In this document: one piece after another, positions 144 through 63,937 of the stretch | Layout: the number at the start of each line of letters is the position of its first letter | How positions within the stretch are numbered: the stretch's first letter is position 1 | NCBI RefSeq assembly: GCF_030651835.1 | Contig: NZ_JAUSBX010000083.1 | Location: forward strand, 1-64,000 | Direction of reading: 5' to 3' | Source of the DNA: Methylicorpusculum sp. | GTDB taxonomy: Bacteria; Pseudomonadota; Gammaproteobacteria; Methylococcales; Methylomonadaceae | DNA length: 64,000 bases | Translations under genes and position numbers: made by a program | The notes under the pieces: model-generated | What the model was told of the DNA's origin: nothing | The model's database searches: none | What the model saw: only the letters and a program-made list of their open reading frames with translations

Positions 144-1802
144 ATGAATGACGACAAAACCGTTTTTAAACCCACCTTATCGGGCAACGCAGTGGTTGAC
201 GAAGATCGTACCGTGATATTTAAACCGGACGCGCTAAACGTAAGCTTGGTGGGATCTCAGGGTGAAATCATTGCGGCCTATTCATTTTCCGACCGATTTA
301 CGGCAGGTCGCTCTTTGGATAATTCTATCGTTATCAAAAACGATGTGGTCAGCCGTCATCATCTTGAAGTTAAATGGGAAAACGGCGGATGGTGGATTGC
401 TAATCTGCAAAGTGCGAACGGTCTTTATATCAATGGCAGACTGATTCAACAAAAAGAAAAACTAAACCTGCCCTGCTCTGTTGCCTTAGGCCTTTCAGGT
501 ATTCAGCTAAAAATCCAATTAGCAAAACACGCTGAGAATGACGATCAGACGCAAGTTAAAGTCCTACTTGCCGAACCTTTGCCTGTTGATAAAAGTCATG
601 CGGCACGGAATTTATCTCAAGAACACATCAAATCCCGATTACTCGCCGAAGAAGCGGCAGACGATATGGGTGACTACACATTGATGGTTCGAAAACTGAT
701 CCATGAAGACCGTGTTGTTCGAAAAAAAGGTTATAAAAAAATTATTTGGGCCTTGGGAAGTTTATTTTTATTGTCACTCGGATTGGCCGCCTATCAGCAG
801 ATTGCGTTGAATAATGCCCGTAAACTGGCGATTGACATGTTCTATGACATCAAAATGCTGGAAGTTGGTTTATCTCAGGCCGATATTAAGTTGGAAGAAA
901 GTGCGGAAACACTGGATAAAACCATGCGGGCCATCAGTACTGAAAAATTGAGGATCGAACAGGAACAACTGAAATTGGAACAGGAAAAAATAGCCGCAGA
1001 AAGAAAGCGCATGCTTCAGGACCGGGAAAGATTGGCGAATATGAAAGCCAAATACCGACAGTATGTTGAAGAAGCCAATTCATTACGTTTAAGGTTTCCA
1101 ACAAAAGCCCAATACGAGGAAGAATTGATTGCAAAGGTCGCCAGGGAGCTGGGGGAAAGCGAATTGGAACTCCCAGAAGACTTTGTGGTTGAGGTGAGAA
1201 AATATATTCAATACTGGCAAGGTTCTTCAAGAATCCAGCGTGCGATAGAAACACTGGAAAAAAACAGTTTACTGCCCATTGTGATAGACACACTAAAAAA
1301 GCACGGGATGCCGCTCTATTTTATTTATTTGCCTCTTCAGGAAAGTAATTACGATACCCAAGCCATAGGCCCTGAAACTAAATACGGTGTCGCTAAAGGC
1401 GCCTGGCAACTGCTGGCAAGTACGGCCCAGCAATACGGTGTTGAACCGGGGCCTTTGGCAAACGTGCCTGAGTATGATGAGCTCGACGGCCGTTTTGATT
1501 TCAACCAAGCCACGCAAGCCGGCATAAAGTATTTGAGGCATATCTACAGCACAGAGGCTCAAGCGTCGGGATTGCTGGTGATGGCCAGTTACAACTACGG
1601 TGACAATCGGGTGAAGGGAATGATTAATAAAATGCCGGATAACCCGCGTGATAAAAATTTCTGGAAATTTCTTCAGCAATATGAACTTCCGAAAGAAACC
1701 AAAGATTATGTCTTTTATATTTTTTCCGCAGCGGTCATTGGCGAAGATCCGCAGCATTTCGGATTTAAATTCAATCCCCCATTGTTTAACGCAAGCCAAT
1801 AA
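144..1802 (+). CDS. FHA-domain / lytic transglycosylase (SLT) fusion membrane protein
   Basis: The 552-residue protein has an N-terminal FHA domain (about residues 38-125; GRS at 55-57, SRHH at 70-73, NG turn at 97-98), a single membrane segment (about 200-222), a charged coiled coil (about 238-318) and a C-terminal SLT/MltD-like transglycosylase domain (about 388-540). The probable catalytic Glu is E400 in LPLQESNY. FHA domains bind phosphothreonine; SLT domains cleave peptidoglycan glycan strands. The topology implied is cytoplasmic FHA and periplasmic enzyme, so a cytoplasmic phospho-signal could be passed to wall remodelling (inference). The N-terminus carries two similar Thr-containing stretches, KTVFKP and RTVIFKP, which could be phosphorylation targets. 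The stop codon lies inside the 9-bp duplication made by the downstream mobile element. No Ser/Thr kinase gene is visible nearby. Confidence 0.85.
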   Translation: MNDDKTVFKPTLSGNAVVDEDRTVIFKPDALNVSLVGSQGEIIAAYSFSDRFTAGRSLDNSIVIKNDVVSRHHLEVKWENGGWWIANLQSANGLYINGRLIQQKEKLNLPCSVALGLSGIQLKIQLAKHAENDDQTQVKVLLAEPLPVDKSHAARNLSQEHIKSRLLAEEAADDMGDYTLMVRKLIHEDRVVRKKGYKKIIWALGSLFLLSLGLAAYQQIALNNARKLAIDMFYDIKMLEVGLSQADIKLEESAETLDKTMRAISTEKLRIEQEQLKLEQEKIAAERKRMLQDRERLANMKAKYRQYVEEANSLRLRFPTKAQYEEELIAKVARELGESELELPEDFVVEVRKYIQYWQGSSRIQRAIETLEKNSLLPIVIDTLKKHGMPLYFIYLPLQESNYDTQAIGPETKYGVAKGAWQLLASTAQQYGVEPGPLANVPEYDELDGRFDFNQATQAGIKYLRHIYSTEAQASGLLVMASYNYGDNRVKGMINKMPDNPRDKNFWKFLQQYELPKETKDYVFYIFSAAVIGEDPQHFGFKFNPPLFNASQ

Positions 1803-2030
1803 TTAGCCCAGCAATTCTCAGTTTGATCCTTCGGCGTCATTTTGGGCTGGGAAAAGCCTTTTGAGAAACGCCGTAAACCCTTCCATGGGGGCTTGACAGC
1901 AGCATCTGACCGCCAAGGAGGTTGGAAATGCAGATTTTGTCTGGAATAAAAATCTGCCCTGCTGCCGACATCCTCAAAAAGCTTCCCTCAGCTCTTTTTC
2001 CCTTCAAATTGAGAATTGCTGTAATTAGCC
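1800..2030 (-). mobile_element. MITE-like element, family A copy 1 (with 9-bp target duplication)
   Basis: A 213-nt element (1809-2021) has inverted ends CAGCAATTCTCA... and ...GAGAATTGCTG and is flanked on both sides by the exact 9-bp repeat TAATTAGCC (1800-1808 and 2022-2030). It is the reverse-oriented relative of the elements at 40368-40529 and 63695-63853. Most of its length is quasi-palindromic. Compared with the others it has about 50 extra bases in the centre (about 1907-1957), which themselves hold a hairpin (CAGATTTT...AAAATCTG, 1931-1956). It encodes no protein, so it must have been mobilised in trans. It lies between the FHA gene and convergent msrP and may act as a terminator. 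Confidence 0.85.
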
Positions 2031-14451: not shown

Positions 14452-14492
14452 ACTATCCTCTGGTGTGAATCAGCAGATTTAGCTTGAAATAT

Positions 14493-14528
14493 TATCTCGT
14501 TCCCAAGCTCCAGCTTGGGAACGAGATA
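14493..14528. repeat. REP-type perfect palindrome
   Basis: Two exactly complementary 17-nt arms (TATCTCGTTCCCAAGCT and its complement) are separated by only CC. The same core, CGTTCCCAAGCT...AGCTTGGGAA, recurs at 14842 and 15134, making this a REP family member. It lies 41 bases after the porin stop and could stabilise or end that transcript. Confidence 0.85.
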
Positions 14529-14618
14529 TACCAATCACTTTTACAATATTTTCATGGGCTTATGGCTTAAGTAAGTGCCATTCGTACCTGACCCCAGTTA
14601 TTACGATCGAGCGCCTTG

Positions 14619-14745
14619 TTAGATTGCATTGTGTATAGCTTCAAGTACATACTTTACGTCAGTTGCGATGACAATATTGTCACGAGCTCTGTGCTCAATA
14701 GCGACCCCAACGACAGGGAACACTATTGAGTCAACGCGATAAGGT
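14619..14745 (-). other. Possible C-terminal gene remnant, unidentified
   Basis: A short open stretch on the minus strand, without its own start, reads with protein-like composition (for example DSIVFPVVGVAIEHRARDN and VKYVLEAIHNAI before the stop at 14619). I do not recognise the family. Given the repeat-rich surroundings it may be the tail of a deleted gene, or chance. Confidence 0.25.
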
Positions 14746-14841
14746 GCGCAAACAAATATAGGGTGTGCCGACGTAAGGAGGCGCACCGGTCGCGAGCAAT
14801 TCCCATTTTAAAACCTTAGTTTTTTCTAGGTATTTGATTTG

Positions 14842-14893
14842 TCTCGTTCCCAAGCTCAAGCTTGGGAATGCCTACCTTCAAGCTCAGCTTGGT
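14842..14893. repeat. REP doublet, left arm flanking RAYT remnant
   Basis: TCTCGTTCCCAAGCTCAAGCTTGGGAA (a REP palindrome) is followed by CCTACC and TCAAGCTCAGCTTGG, a second smaller palindrome. The same doublet occurs inverted at 15114-15165, so the two bracket about 220 bases containing a transposase remnant. Confidence 0.75.
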
Positions 14894-14896
14894 ATT

Positions 14897-15010
14897 TCAA
14901 TAGAGCAAAACGATAAGCAACCAAGCGTCTTTGCCTGCATAAGCCCGCGCACTTGAATAACGCCAATGTTCTAGCAAGTCCACATAACCACGTTTGACAG
15001 TAGTGCGGTA
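14897..15010 (-). pseudogene. Remnant of a REP-associated tyrosine transposase (RAYT, TnpA_REP), C-terminus only
   Basis: Within an open frame reaching 15337, only the last 35 or so codons resemble a known protein: VKRGYVDLLEHWRYSSARAYAG matches the C-terminal signature of Y1-type REP-associated transposases (usual form NPVKRGYV..P..WRYSSARNY). The catalytic Tyr and HUH His motifs are absent, so the gene is a fragment. It sits directly between inverted REP palindromes of the kind these enzymes process. The upstream part of the frame (15011-15337) looks like shuffled non-coding DNA. Confidence 0.65.
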
Positions 15011-15113
15011 GGTTGCGGTGATGCACGAACCGCATCTGTCGCGATTGATGCGGTCCCGTTTTTCAACGAGTCCTACATCCCATATATCTGATTTGTTCTG
15101 AAACAGATGTTCA

Positions 15114-15165
15114 TAAAGCTGAGCTTGAGGGTAGGCATTCCCAAGCTGGAGCTTGGGAATGAGAT
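15114..15165. repeat. REP doublet, right arm
   Basis: AAGCTGAGCTTGAGGGTAGG followed by the palindrome CATTCCCAAGCT...AGCTTGGGAATG is the reverse complement of the doublet at 14842-14893. Together they form a REPIN-like pair. Confidence 0.75.
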
Positions 15166-15425
15166 ATTTTTGCCCCGTCTCCCTTTGTAAATCAAGAGTT
15201 CCAACTTGAAATAACGCCCCGCTTTGAATTTTCTGTAGGCGCGAATTATTTGCCATTACAGAATGGTGGCTTTTGCAAAAAAAAGAGCTGACCCCATTGT
15301 TTGCGTAGGATTTGGTTTTGACGTTAGCATGAAGCACTTAGTCGGTATCGGCGCAGAGACGCGATTATACGGGTTACGAGTCTTTATCGATGCTCAATTA
15401 ACAAAGCAGTTACTATTTAATTGAA

Positions 15426-29849: not shown

Positions 29850-30210
29850 GGATTTCCCCTCTCTGAAGTAATGACACTTGTATGGCTAAAGTTTCATAGA
29901 TAAAGCACTAAACCGATCTGGGAATTTAATCAGATATTTCTGATGCCCTTCCGGAATTAGGCTGATTTATTATCCATGAGAATCAGCGTCTCAAGCGGGT
30001 AATCATAGTCAATCAGTGCAAACATGCCAGAAAACAGGTATTGACTTCTTTTATTGGGTGTAGATACTTGATTTAAGGAGCCTTTTCAACCCTCTCTATT
30101 CCACTAGCGGGCGAGTAGTTACCGTCCCAATTTGAAGGAAAAAAAGAGGGTGAAGGAGGAATCAACGAAGCGCTGATCAAGGCGCTTCCTGTTCAAAGTG
30201 GGTTGCTAAT
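29850..30210. other. Gene-free gap with repeat remnants
   Basis: A 361-base gap without a plausible gene. It holds a shortened family B repeat (30050-30122). Immediately after comes a stretch beginning CCCAATTTGAAGG (30127) and ending TTCAAAGTGGGTTGCT (about 30193-30208) that loosely resembles the two ends of a family A element. Confidence 0.5.
30050..30122 (+). repeat. Repeat family B, internally deleted copy
   Basis: It starts TTTATTGGGTGTAG and ends GGCGAGTAGTTAC like the copy at 52412-52536, but is 73 instead of about 125 bases because the middle is missing. Confidence 0.7.
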
Positions 30211-38678: not shown

Positions 38679-38706
38679 AACTATAACGCCTCATTTGGAG
38701 ATAGCT

Positions 38707-39963
38707 ATGTTCAACAAATCACAAACAATTGCCGGTTTCGACGATGAACTTTTCAACGCTTTGGAAGAAGAGCGTCAGCGCCAGGAAGATCACATCGAAC
38801 TGATTGCTTCCGAAAATTATTGCAGCCCGCGGGTCATGGAAGCACAAGGCACCGTATTGACCAACAAATATGCGGAAGGCTATCCTGGCAAACGATATTA
38901 CGGCGGTTGTGAATTTGTTGATAAAGCCGAACAACTGGCCATAGATCGCGCCAAAGAATTATTCGGCGCAGATTACGCCAATGTCCAACCGCACTCCGGC
39001 TCTCAAGCCAATATGGCGGTGTTCATGGCTCTGATCCAGCCCGGCGATACGATTTTGGGCTTAAGCCTGGCTGATGGCGGTCACCTGACGCACGGCGCCA
39101 AACCCAATTTCTCCGGTAAAATCTACAATGCGATTCAGTACGGATTGCATCCTGATACCGGTTTGATCGATTATGATCAGGTCGAACGCCTTGCAATCGA
39201 ACACAAGCCTAAAGTCTTGGTTGCCGGATTTTCCGCCTATTCCCGCATCTGGGACTGGCAACGTTTTCGCGAAATTGCCGATAAGGTCGGCGCTTATTTG
39301 TTTGTCGACATGGCTCACGTTGCCGGACTGGTTGCCGCCGGTTTATATCCGAATCCCGTGCCCATTGCCGATGTTGTGACCAGCACAACTCATAAATCCT
39401 TGCGCGGCCCCAGAGGCGGACTGATTTTATGCAAGAGCAACCCTGAACTTCAGAAAAAATTTGATTCAAACATTTTCCCCGGCATTCAAGGCGGCCCATT
39501 AATGCATGTAATTGCGGCCAAAGCCGTTGCTTTTAAAGAAGCCATGCAACCTGAATTTCGCGCCTATCAGGAACAAGTCATCAAAAATGCCAAGGCCATG
39601 GCCGAAGTATTTGTTAATCGCGGCTTTGATGTCGTTTCCGGCGGAACGGACAACCATCTGATGCTGGTTTCGTTAATTCCTAAAGGCATTACCGGTAAAG
39701 CGGCCGATGCCGCGCTGGGCAGGGCACATATCACAGTCAATAAAAATGCCGTGCCTAATGACCCTGAATCGCCTTTTGTCACCAGCGGCATTCGCGTCGG
39801 AACCCCCGCTCCCACTACGCGCGGTTTCAAGGAAGAGCAAATGCGAGAAATCGCCGGGTTAATGTGCGATGTCATGGAGAATATGGAAGATGAGACATTG
39901 ATTTCAGCCGTGCGCGATAAAGTCAGTATCTTGTGCTCCCGCTTTCCGGTTTATGCCAATTAA
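38707..39963 (+). CDS. glyA: Serine hydroxymethyltransferase
   Basis: The 418-aa PLP enzyme condenses glycine with methylene-THF to serine, the C1-entry step of the serine cycle. Motifs are [33 protein letters not shown], and the PLP lysine K230 in [17 protein letters not shown] 38707 follows TTGGAG at proper spacing; an in-frame TTG at 38695 is ignored. It is the last gene before a strong terminator at 40174. Confidence 0.96.
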
Positions 39964-40358: not shown

Positions 40359-40538
40359 GGCCTAACCCAGCAATTCTCAATTTGAAAGAAAAAGGGGTTG
40401 GGAGAAGCTTTTCGAGGATGTCGACAGCAGAGATGCTGTCGTCAAGCCCCCAAGGAGGGGTTACGGCGTTCCTCAAAAGGCTTTTCCCAGCCCAAATTGA
40501 CGCTGAAAATTTCAAACTGGGAATTGCTGGGCCTAACC
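40359..40538 (+). mobile_element. MITE-like element, family A copy 2 (9-bp target duplication)
   Basis: A 162-nt element (40368-40529) begins CAGCAATTCTCAATTTGA and ends CAAACTGGGAATTGCTG, bracketed by exact 9-bp GGCCTAACC repeats (40359-40367, 40530-40538). The halves are quasi-complementary along most of their length. At the centre is GACAGCA-GAGA-TGCTGTC. It ends 34 bases before the ftfL start codon, so it occupies the ftfL promoter or leader. Confidence 0.9.
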
Positions 40539-40563: not shown

Positions 40564-42237
40564 ATGTCAGATATAGAAATCGCCCAACAAGCGAAGATGC
40601 AACCGATCATTGGTCTCGCCGAAGAAAAGTTCGGCATCCCAGCAGAACATTTAGATCCTTATGGCCACTACAAAGCCAAATTATCGCTGGAATATGTCAA
40701 CAGTTTGGCCGATAAACAAGACGGCAAGCTGATTCTCGTCACCGCTATCAGCCCGACACCGGCCGGTGAAGGCAAAACGACGACGACTGTTGGCTTGGGT
40801 GATGCCATAAACCGCTTGGGCAAAAAAGCCATCATGTGTTTACGTGAACCGTCGCTGGGCCCCTGTTTCGGAGTCAAAGGCGGTGCAGCTGGCGGCGGCT
40901 ACTCTCAAGTCGTGCCCATGGAAGATATTAATCTGCATTTTACTGGCGACTTTCATGCCATCGGTGTCGCGCATAACTTACTTTCTGCATTGATAGACAA
41001 CCATATCAATCACGGCAATGCCCTGGATATTGATTCCCGCCGCATCCAATGGAAACGCGTTGTCGACATGAATGACCGCGCATTACGTAAAATCACGGTG
41101 GGAATGGGAGGGCCGGCTAATGGCTATTTACGCGAGGATGGCTATGACATTGTTGTGGCATCCGAAATCATGGCCATCTTGTGTCTAGCGACCAGCCGTA
41201 AAGACCTGAAAGAACGCTTGGGTCGTATCGTCATCGCCTATAAAACCGACAAAGTAACCCCGGTTTACGCCAGCGACCTGAACGCCCAAGGCGCAATGGC
41301 GGCATTATTGAAAGATGCGATCAAACCGAATCTGGTTCAAACGCTGGAAAATAATATCGCCATCATCCACGGCGGCCCTTTTGCCAATATTGCCCATGGC
41401 TGTAACACCGTAACGGCAACAAAAACAGCGTTAAAACTGGCCGATTACGTCATTACCGAAGCCGGTTTCGGCGCTGACCTGGGTGCTGAAAAATTTATTG
41501 ACATCAAATGCCGGATGTCCGGTTTAAAACCCTCCGCTGTCGTGCTGGTTGCAACGGTGCGCGCGCTTAAATTCCACGGCGGCGTTGCCAAAGACGAACT
41601 AAATACCGAAAATCTGGAGGCCTTACAAAAAGGCTTTGCGAACATTGAGCGTCATATTTTTAATATAACCCAGCATTACGGGTTACCTTGCATCGTTTGT
41701 ATCAACCATTTCACGTTCGATACCGATGCCGAAATTGCCTTACTTAAAGCGAAATGCGAAGCGCTGGGCTCAAAATGCGTTGTATCGAAACATTGGGCAC
41801 AAGGCGGGGCGGGTGCAGAGGAACTGGCAAAAGAGGTGCTCGAAATTGCCGACAACCGTGAACCCGGCTTCAGCTATGTTTATGAAGCTGAAACCCCGCT
41901 TTGGGAAAAAATTGAAACCATCGCTACAAAGCTTTATGGTGCAGCAGGCATTACAGCCAGTCCCAAGGTAAAAGCGGAAATCAAAGCTTTACAAGCCAGC
42001 TACGGTCACTTTCCGGTTTGCATCGCTAAAACGCAGATGTCATTTTCAACCAATCCCAACACTAAAGGCGCACCATCCGGACATACCGTTGAAATCAGCG
42101 AAGTGCGCCTGGCAAACGGAGCGGGATTTGTTGTTGCCATCGCGGGCGATATGATGACAATGCCCGGTTTACCAAAAATTCCCGCAGCCGAGCGTATCGA
42201 CATAACCGATGAGGGTGTAATAACTGGTTTGTTTTGA
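40564..42237 (+). CDS. ftfL: Formate-tetrahydrofolate ligase
   Basis: The 557-aa enzyme activates formate to 10-formyl-THF with ATP, the entry of formate into the assimilatory folate pathway. The nucleotide loop [18 protein letters not shown] (about residues 63-80) and the family segments [24 protein letters not shown] and [14 protein letters not shown] are present. Full length. It has its own transcription start by position, being separated from glyA by a terminator and a mobile element. Confidence 0.96.
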
Positions 42238-43485: not shown

Positions 43486-43947
43486 AGGTCTGAATATAAG
43501 TTCTTAATATTGTATCAAAGCATAGGATAATCCCGGATTAAAACTATCAATCATGCTTTCAAAATCATTGAACCGGTTTAAAAAAGCAATAGCAAAAACA
43601 TTCGACCTTGTTCAAGGCCCAGAATGTGCCTGTCGAAGACCGCCGTGAACGCCTTTATGGCAGCATCCATCCCGCCGACATCTCGCCCCCGCACTTTTTG
43701 AAAATAGACGTTTTTTCAATTCAGTAGGAGTAAGTTATCTGTAAGTCACAAGCAAACAATCAAAACTGATCGTCATTTTTAAACGATGTAACTATTTCAC
43801 ACCGCTGCTGTGAAATCGTCCTCAAAAATCCCTGGCAGAGTTGAGTATGATTCAGTTCAGATTAATCGCTCTGCTATTTAATGATGGCGCTCAAACATAA
43901 TCCCGTTTTCCAATTTTACTTAAACCCACTACTAGAGTTAAGCGAGC
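43486..43947. other. Intergenic region, possible repeat fragment
   Basis: 462 bases without a gene. The block at about 43645-43685 (GGCAGCATCCAT...GCCGACATC) resembles the centre of family A in reverse orientation (GCAGCATCCATGCTGCCGACATC), perhaps a decayed fragment. Nothing else was recognised. Confidence 0.3.
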
Positions 43948-52355: not shown

Positions 52356-52411
52356 TCTGTATAAACTCCCGTTTAGTTAGTGTGTTAAATTGTATTTGCT
52401 CACCCCTTCAT

Positions 52412-52536
52412 TTATTGGGTGTAGGTGGTTGATTAAGGCTTCTGAAACAGGGATGTTACGATAGCTACGGGACATATTGATGCGTCCTTTTAAATCAAGC
52501 ACCTACGCCCACAATTCAAAGGAGGCGAGTAGTTAC
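52412..52536 (+). repeat. Repeat family B, full copy
   Basis: It runs from TTTATTGGGTGTAGGTGGTT to GGCGAGTAGTTAC, with internal inverted segments (GTAGGTGGTTGATT versus AAATCAAGCACCTAC). Nearly the same sequence lies inverted at 62656-62785. It sits in the leader region upstream of ndk. Confidence 0.75.
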
Positions 52537-52639
52537 GTTAAATTTTAGTATTTAATTTTTCGATTATATATGAGCAGACGGTTTCATAAGAATTAATCTG
52601 CTCGTGCACGATTTATAAAAAAGCCTCAACAGTTAGTTA

Positions 52640-62599: not shown

Positions 62600-62655
62600 A
62601 GAGTTCCTGAATGGCAGCACATTGCTCGCGGGCGGCAGAAAATAAACGATGATAA

Positions 62656-62785
62656 GTAACTACACGCCCGCTTAAATTGCGGTCGTAGGTGCTGGATTTC
62701 AAAGGATGCATCAATACGCCCCTGTAGCTCTCTGCAACATCCTTGTTACCGAAGCCTTTTCAATCAACCACCTACACCCAATAAA
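62656..62785 (-). repeat. Repeat family B, full copy (inverted)
   Basis: It runs GTAACTACACGCCCGC to CACCTACACCCAATAAA, the reverse complement of the copy at 52412-52536 with scattered changes. It lies about 55 bases upstream of the copA start. Confidence 0.75.
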
Positions 62786-62833
62786 AAATGGGAGAGAGGC
62801 TGGGGGACAGTTTTTAATAAATCCCCCCTCGAT

Positions 62834-63470: not shown

Positions 63471-63937
63471 TGGACAAGGCCGAAGCCATCGCTCAAACCC
63501 AATTCCCGAATGCAGAGCTTCGCTGGATTGAAACCCCCAATTCGCCCGAAGATACTTATAAAATATTTCTCTACCAAGACGGTGAGCCCAGCAAACGATT
63601 TCCTAAAACCATTGTTTGGATGGATCAATATGCCGGGGAATCCTTTATCAAATGGCTACACCCTTTACACAACGGCGAAATTGCAGGACTTACCCAGCAA
63701 TTCTCAATTTGAAGGAGAAATGGGCTGGGGAAAGCTTTTTGAGGATGTCGGCAGCATGGATGCTGCTGCCAAGCCCCCATGGAACGGTTTACGGCGTTCC
63801 TCGAAAGGCTTTTCCCAGCCCAAAATGACGCTGAAAATATCAAACTGGGAATTACCGGTCGCATTATCATTTTTGTAAGCGACTTTATTCCTTTGGTATT
63901 GCATATGACAGGTAATCCGCTGGTTACAAAAACGTAA
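63437..63937 (+). pseudogene. PepSY-TM (iron-regulated membrane) protein remnant, split by a MITE
   Basis: The frame contains SLDKAEAIAQTQFPNAELRWIE, DTYKIFLYQDGEPSKRFPKTIVW and SFIKWLHPLHNGEIAGL, a PepSY-associated membrane protein (PiuB type) missing its N-terminal half. The family A element enters after codon GGACTTACC. Beyond it the same frame resumes at GGTCGC with GRIIIFVSDFIPLVLHMTGNPL and a stop at 63935, the expected C-terminal membrane helix. Such proteins accompany TonB-dependent siderophore receptors and FecI/FecR regulators. Confidence 0.7.
63692..63856 (+). mobile_element. MITE-like element, family A copy 3
   Basis: About 159 bases (63695-63853) start CAGCAATTCTCAATTTGA and end ATCAAACTGGGAATT; the final GCTG seen in other copies is missing. 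ACC flanks both sides. If the target duplication was 9 bp (GGACTTACC) as elsewhere, a 10-base loss at the right edge explains the present junction (inference). It carries in-frame stops that end the PepSY reading at 63712. Confidence 0.8.

Follow-up and report, generated by a model that had tools for sequence, protein, structure and literature searches.

A MITE family with 9-bp target duplications and a TwoAYGGAY-like two-hairpin core in a methane-oxidising gammaproteobacterium

Many bacterial MITEs are palindromic and parentless. Families without a known parent, such as Correia/NEMIS and the Coxiella MITEs (PMC5896051), are short, end in terminal inverted repeats, duplicate their target, occur in many copies and contain no ORF, and the same holds for the repeat family described here from a Methylicorpusculum sp. 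contig, of which a stretch of 64,000 nucleotides (the window) was analysed. The present family differs from them in its 9-bp duplication and CAGCAATTCYCA ends, and in a structured module with covarying arms that recurs across bacterial families. The MITE is a further case of a known kind, and its combination with a conserved structured module is the new part. The module resembles the Rfam motif TwoAYGGAY (RF01731), with which it shares two adjacent hairpins with AYGGAY-type loops, a variable outer stem, and AAG before and CGG after hairpin 2; in the RF01731 model, hairpin 2 is longer than in the core studied here, and this core sits inside a transposon. We consider it very likely that the family is a MITE moved in trans that carries a captured TwoAYGGAY-type module.

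Three copies of the family lie in the window, with the following features.

1800-1808, no strand: left target-site duplication of copy 1, TAATTAGCC, including the TAA stop of the ORF at 144-1802
1809-2021, minus strand (sense strand of the core): copy 1, long form, 213 bp, with ~51 nt of extra hairpin sequence inserted in loop 1
1856-1982, minus strand: two-hairpin core of copy 1; 73.4 bits with model R1; loop 1 interrupted, loop 2 AUGGAA
2022-2030, no strand: right target-site duplication of copy 1, TAATTAGCC, exact over 9 bp
40359-40367, no strand: left target-site duplication of copy 2, GGCCTAACC
40368-40529, plus strand: copy 2, short form, 162 bp
40407-40481, plus strand: two-hairpin core of copy 2; 76.2 bits; loop 1 AGAGAU (GGA lost), loop 2 AAGGAG
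40530-40538, no strand: right target-site duplication of copy 2, GGCCTAACC, exact over 9 bp
63686-63694, no strand: left duplication of copy 3, GGACTTACC; the right side keeps only ACC (63854-63856)
63695-63853, plus strand: copy 3, right end truncated; the insertion interrupts an ORF
63734-63809, plus strand: two-hairpin core of copy 3; 80.5 bits; both ANGGAN loops intact (AUGGAU, AUGGAA)

Copies 1 and 2 had been described, in a reading of the sequence alone, as each bracketed by a different perfect 9-bp duplication, and TAATTAGCC and GGCCTAACC were both confirmed. Copy 2 has a serine hydroxymethyltransferase gene (38695-39963) on one side and a formate-THF ligase gene (40564-42237) on the other, and its sense strand runs in the direction of both genes. 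The left end of copy 3 is intact at 63695, and its right end reads ...GGGAATT followed directly by ACCGGTCGC; this side has lost the terminal GCTG along with six bases (GGACTT) from the start of the duplication. The missing full duplication of copy 3 is best explained by a later deletion of ~10 bp, which covered the four end bases and the six duplication bases. When the flanks of copy 3 were joined, they gave an open frame (...NGEIAGL-TGRIIIFVSDF...), so that between the left flank and the sequence after the remaining ACC the frame reads through the site as NGEIAGL-TGRIIIFVSDFIPLVLHMTG. Because joining the flanks reopens the frame, copy 3 is read as an old insertion into a gene. Among the three window copies, both loops were kept in copy 3 only, and loop 1 is damaged in copies 1 and 2.

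The CAGCAATT sequence by itself was mildly enriched in the window (14 seen versus 5 expected). In the host's own genome, a 4.6-Mb draft, the 18-bp pattern of the ends, allowing two mismatches at most, gave a search total of 352 matches (175 + 177), compared with 1 (1 + 0) for the reversed control. The three related quasi-palindromes with shared ends noticed in the sequence-only reading are thus real, but they are more than quasi-palindromes, since their centre is structured and strand-specific. A DNA search with copy 2 gave 41 matches in the same genome, copy 2 itself counted. Among the 93 end pairs at the loci listed from the window, the own genome and relatives, 40 showed 9/9 duplications and 13 more showed 8/9; for the 48 pairs listed from the window and own genome, the numbers were 20 and 7, respectively. 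The chance expectation of an exact 9-bp duplication is 4^-9 per pair. When widths of 5 to 11 were tested, the own-genome copies had exact duplications at width 9 only, and the target sites showed no fixed motif, with a preference for G or C towards the edges and for A or T in the centre. Five end matches in the own genome had no exact partner; these were degenerate copies of the MITE located next to ordinary ORFs. The terminal inverted repeats had fixed boundaries in many copies and the target duplication had a constant length of 9 bp, as expected of a MITE; the copies lacked transposase coding capacity and were mostly within 130-300 bp, with typical lengths of ~160-215 bp and a maximum of 296 bp where inserts are nested. 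In several copies (G083 loci L092, L104 and L348), the loop region holds a small palindromic insert (CCCAGCACCTAAATTA...AATTTAGGTGCTGGGT), apparently a nested insertion. The MITE ends were also found, again with exact duplications, in 13 of the 121 genomes sampled from the host's family, Methylomonadaceae, representing 5 of 29 genera, and in a comparison with outside loci, both-ended copies were confined to loci of the host's family. These results support genome-wide the 9-bp staggered cut that the sequence-only reading had drawn from two copies. That account held up when genome copies were checked for missing 9-bp repeats, as exact duplications recurred, and when the family was checked for extension far beyond its ends.

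Next, we searched for a parent element. The copies had been described as lacking a transposase, with no autonomous parent in the window, and both points were supported. A full insertion sequence with the same terminal inverted repeats was also looked for in the own genome and relatives; no element combining these ends with a transposase was found with PF01609 (own genome and ten relatives), with PF13808 (own genome) or with end patterns run with and without the conserved 14th base. A further scan, in which inverted ends with 9-bp duplications were sought near transposases, turned up other insertion sequences that had perfect 9-bp duplications and unrelated ends. One different insertion sequence, at G000:C97 (L064), has CATAAGTATCTACA ends and an exact 9-bp duplication, CTTGCTGCG. 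An affinity with IS10, IS50 or IS903 had been hinted at, and these elements have the 9-bp target duplication in common with the MITE, but their terminal sequences are unrelated. The relatives' IS10-like (CTGAGGTATCCCC) and IS903-like (GGCTTTGTTGCATAAATC) elements carry 9-bp duplications, but their terminal repeats do not match CAGCAATTCYCA, so that an origin from IS10 or IS903 is not supported; the ends of IS50 are presumably also unlike those of the MITE. The mobilising transposase is presumably of the DDE type, a class read from the 9-bp footprint alone, and we infer that it is absent or diverged in this genome. In the mechanism that we propose, non-autonomous DNA transposons with CAGCAATTCYCARTTTGA-type terminal inverted repeats, whose ends and duplications were observed directly, would be moved by this trans-acting enzyme through cuts with a 9-bp stagger. 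One TwoAYGGAY-type module lies between the MITE ends, joined to them by covarying stem arms, and in the simplest history a transposon of this lineage would have captured the module and then amplified it.

The account given by the sequence-only reading was right for what it covers; what it did not notice is the conserved interior. From sequence and covariation, the core consists of two hairpins on the same strand with ANGGAN loops, followed by UUYACGGCGU. In an alignment of ~45 copies, the ends and the centre were conserved and the linking arms differed between subfamilies. Over 50 MITE copies, all of which had passed a loose core match, conservation was 93-94% in the ends, mostly >=90% in the core loops and tail, 80% in the arms and 72-78% in the spacers, with the ends and the core at a similar level of ~94%, and GGA was kept in 46 of the 50 copies in loop 1 and in 41 in loop 2. 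In a cross-family alignment of 19 sequences, 93% of the cells were paired and 20 of the 27 pairs had changed on both sides; 0 of 500 shuffles reached the observed values, and slid controls gave 34-46%. The stems of the Marinobacter copies likewise varied from copy to copy, each still pairing with itself. A strand preference at the RNA level should appear as an excess of G.U over A.C, and among independent copies this excess was weak (47 versus 27, p = 0.03). Low-scoring Rfam hits to Ysr224 and DUF3800-IV were set aside as non-specific hairpin matches. An intrinsic terminator is not favoured, because the U-tract after the stem was absent in the copies read by eye.

The core was also found outside the MITE. 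A pattern made from the centre matched 14 of 369 genomes of the class, with unrelated outer stems, and a covariance model found the core in 35 of 398 sampled genomes of the phylum, with Gammaproteobacteria throughout among the matches listed; the named hosts include Stenotrophomonas, Marinobacter, Rheinheimera, Microbulbifer and Methylotuvimicrobium. The CAGCAATT ends were absent from the cores outside the host's family. Although every search pattern left loop 1 unconstrained, GGA was present in loop 1 of ~92 of the 94 copies outside the family, as read from the loop list, together with 77 different outer 12-mers. The module occurs without these ends across Gammaproteobacteria and thus probably predates the MITE. 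Searches of plasmid and phage collections gave no match to the core. These data also bear on whether the core is a passive by-product, that is, a snap-back MITE with function in its ends only, whose core looks conserved as the copies are young. The close relationship of copies within one genome and the general commonness of palindromic, parentless MITEs in bacteria would suit such an origin, but in other gammaproteobacterial families this core lacks these ends and has unrelated stems, divergence within the MITE copies is greater in the arms and spacers than in the core, and the cross-family covariation contradicts such an origin. We therefore regard this explanation as highly improbable.

Related cores were also detected in a second, unrelated repeat family in the window.

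62694-62766, minus strand: related core in the repeat family with ATTGGGTGTAGGTGGTTGATT ends, 30.1 bits
52430-52497, plus strand: weak core match in a second copy of the ATTGGGTGTAGGTGGTTGATT family, 15.8 bits

This ATTGGGTGTAGGTGGTTGATT...AATCAAGCACCTACGCCCA family, which encloses a weaker two-hairpin core, occupies 52385-52545 and 62650-62815, with a remnant near 30045. A further weak core match (20.8 bits) lies on the minus strand at 43628-43692 in a degenerate GC-rich stretch, and at 14488-15171 a CTCGTTCCCAAGCTCCAGCTTGGGAA-type palindrome occurs three times in ~700 bp.

Outside the host's family, 24 of the 28 close core clusters were divergent, 3 were convergent and 1 was tandem, with divergent doublets ~55-325 bp apart at loci L200-L274 (Stenotrophomonas, Marinobacter, Microbulbifer, Saccharospirillum and others). 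Such clustering, in cores that lack the MITE ends, resembles a repeat unit more than a gene leader. No consistent orientation of the copies to flanking genes was found, and a cis-regulatory role is therefore not favoured; a 3'-UTR or promoter role lost weight on the same ground. Divergent doublets and many copies per genome are also features of REP/REPIN elements, but the module has no GTAG/GGAG foot noticeable by eye, and it is the loop side that is conserved, with the stems free to change. As an addition to the captured-module explanation, the core may act at the DNA level, as a hairpin or cruciform that signals to a mobilising or replication enzyme and serves its own dispersal in the manner of REP/REPIN. 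The divergent clusters, which occur whatever the direction of the flanking genes, the stems that differ per copy and yet self-pair, and the lack of a gene-orientation preference are consistent with such a signal. The doublets were not seen in the MITEs, and the wobble asymmetry, though weak, points to RNA. We judge this DNA-level role to be somewhat unlikely, but it is a live rival to an RNA function of the module, which is plausible.

In the window and the own genome, no RF01731 hit reached the curated gathering threshold of 43 bits. Relatives of the core elsewhere did pass it (L138 with 44 bits, and others with 44.7 and 43.3 bits), and the hits of model R1 and RF01731 coincided in G843, G609 and G393. 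Family-wide, the core shows an outer stem enclosing two hairpins whose loops are AYGGAY-like, with the loop 1 damage of window copies 1 and 2 as noted above. Because the window cores score below the threshold, they are described here as TwoAYGGAY-like and are not filed as members. Counted against the captured-module explanation as a whole are the lack of an autonomous parent, these low scores, the two damaged window loops, the absence of an orientation bias and the weakness of the G.U excess.

RsmE, a homologue of CsrA, binds hexaloops of the ANGGAN form, and a single CsrA dimer can span two sites separated by 10-63 nt (PMC7652899); CsrA binding was proposed earlier for TwoAYGGAY (PMC4333381). 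The core has in common with CsrA/RsmA binding hairpins the ANGGAN hexaloop and two sites about 23 nt apart, but it has extra invariant bases around hairpin 2. Given the agreement of its loops with the CsrA/RsmA site, the core is a plausible candidate CsrA ligand, and any copies that are transcribed would be predicted to bind CsrA. Also as an addition to the captured-module explanation, we tentatively suggest as a possibility that the core is a CsrA/RsmA ligand and that transposition scatters its sites as decoys or puts genes, for example the formate-THF ligase gene, under CsrA. Both loops are of the ANGGAN form, the two GGA of the core are 23 nt apart, a spacing that suits one dimer, and one csrA gene was present in each of the seven genomes tested (7/7). 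Hairpin 2 of a second own-genome variant, CUACACGGAUGUA, is near the SELEX consensus RUACARGGAUGU, and the earlier proposal for TwoAYGGAY points the same way. Against CsrA binding are the lack of strand bias relative to genes, the damage to loop 1 in 2 of the 3 window copies, and the conserved bases beyond the loops (AGCC, UUYACGGCG), which CsrA leaves unaccounted for. In the literature searched, neither the core sequence nor a description of MITEs with CsrA sites was found.

Altogether, these results link an orphan Rfam motif without an assigned function both with a mobile element and with a high copy number per genome, and they give a TwoAYGGAY-type motif a covariation-backed structure across Gammaproteobacteria. 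In a broader scenario, which we consider unlikely, a transposon family would have captured a CsrA-binding RNA module, and its transposition in methane-oxidising gammaproteobacteria would spread pairs of CsrA sites over hundreds of loci, where they would act both as decoys and as ready-made elements of post-transcriptional control; TwoAYGGAY would then be a mobile repeat-borne RNA and not a fixed cis-regulator. Such a link between transposition and the Csr/Rsm system would be testable in methanotrophs that are genetically tractable, for example Methylotuvimicrobium buryatense.
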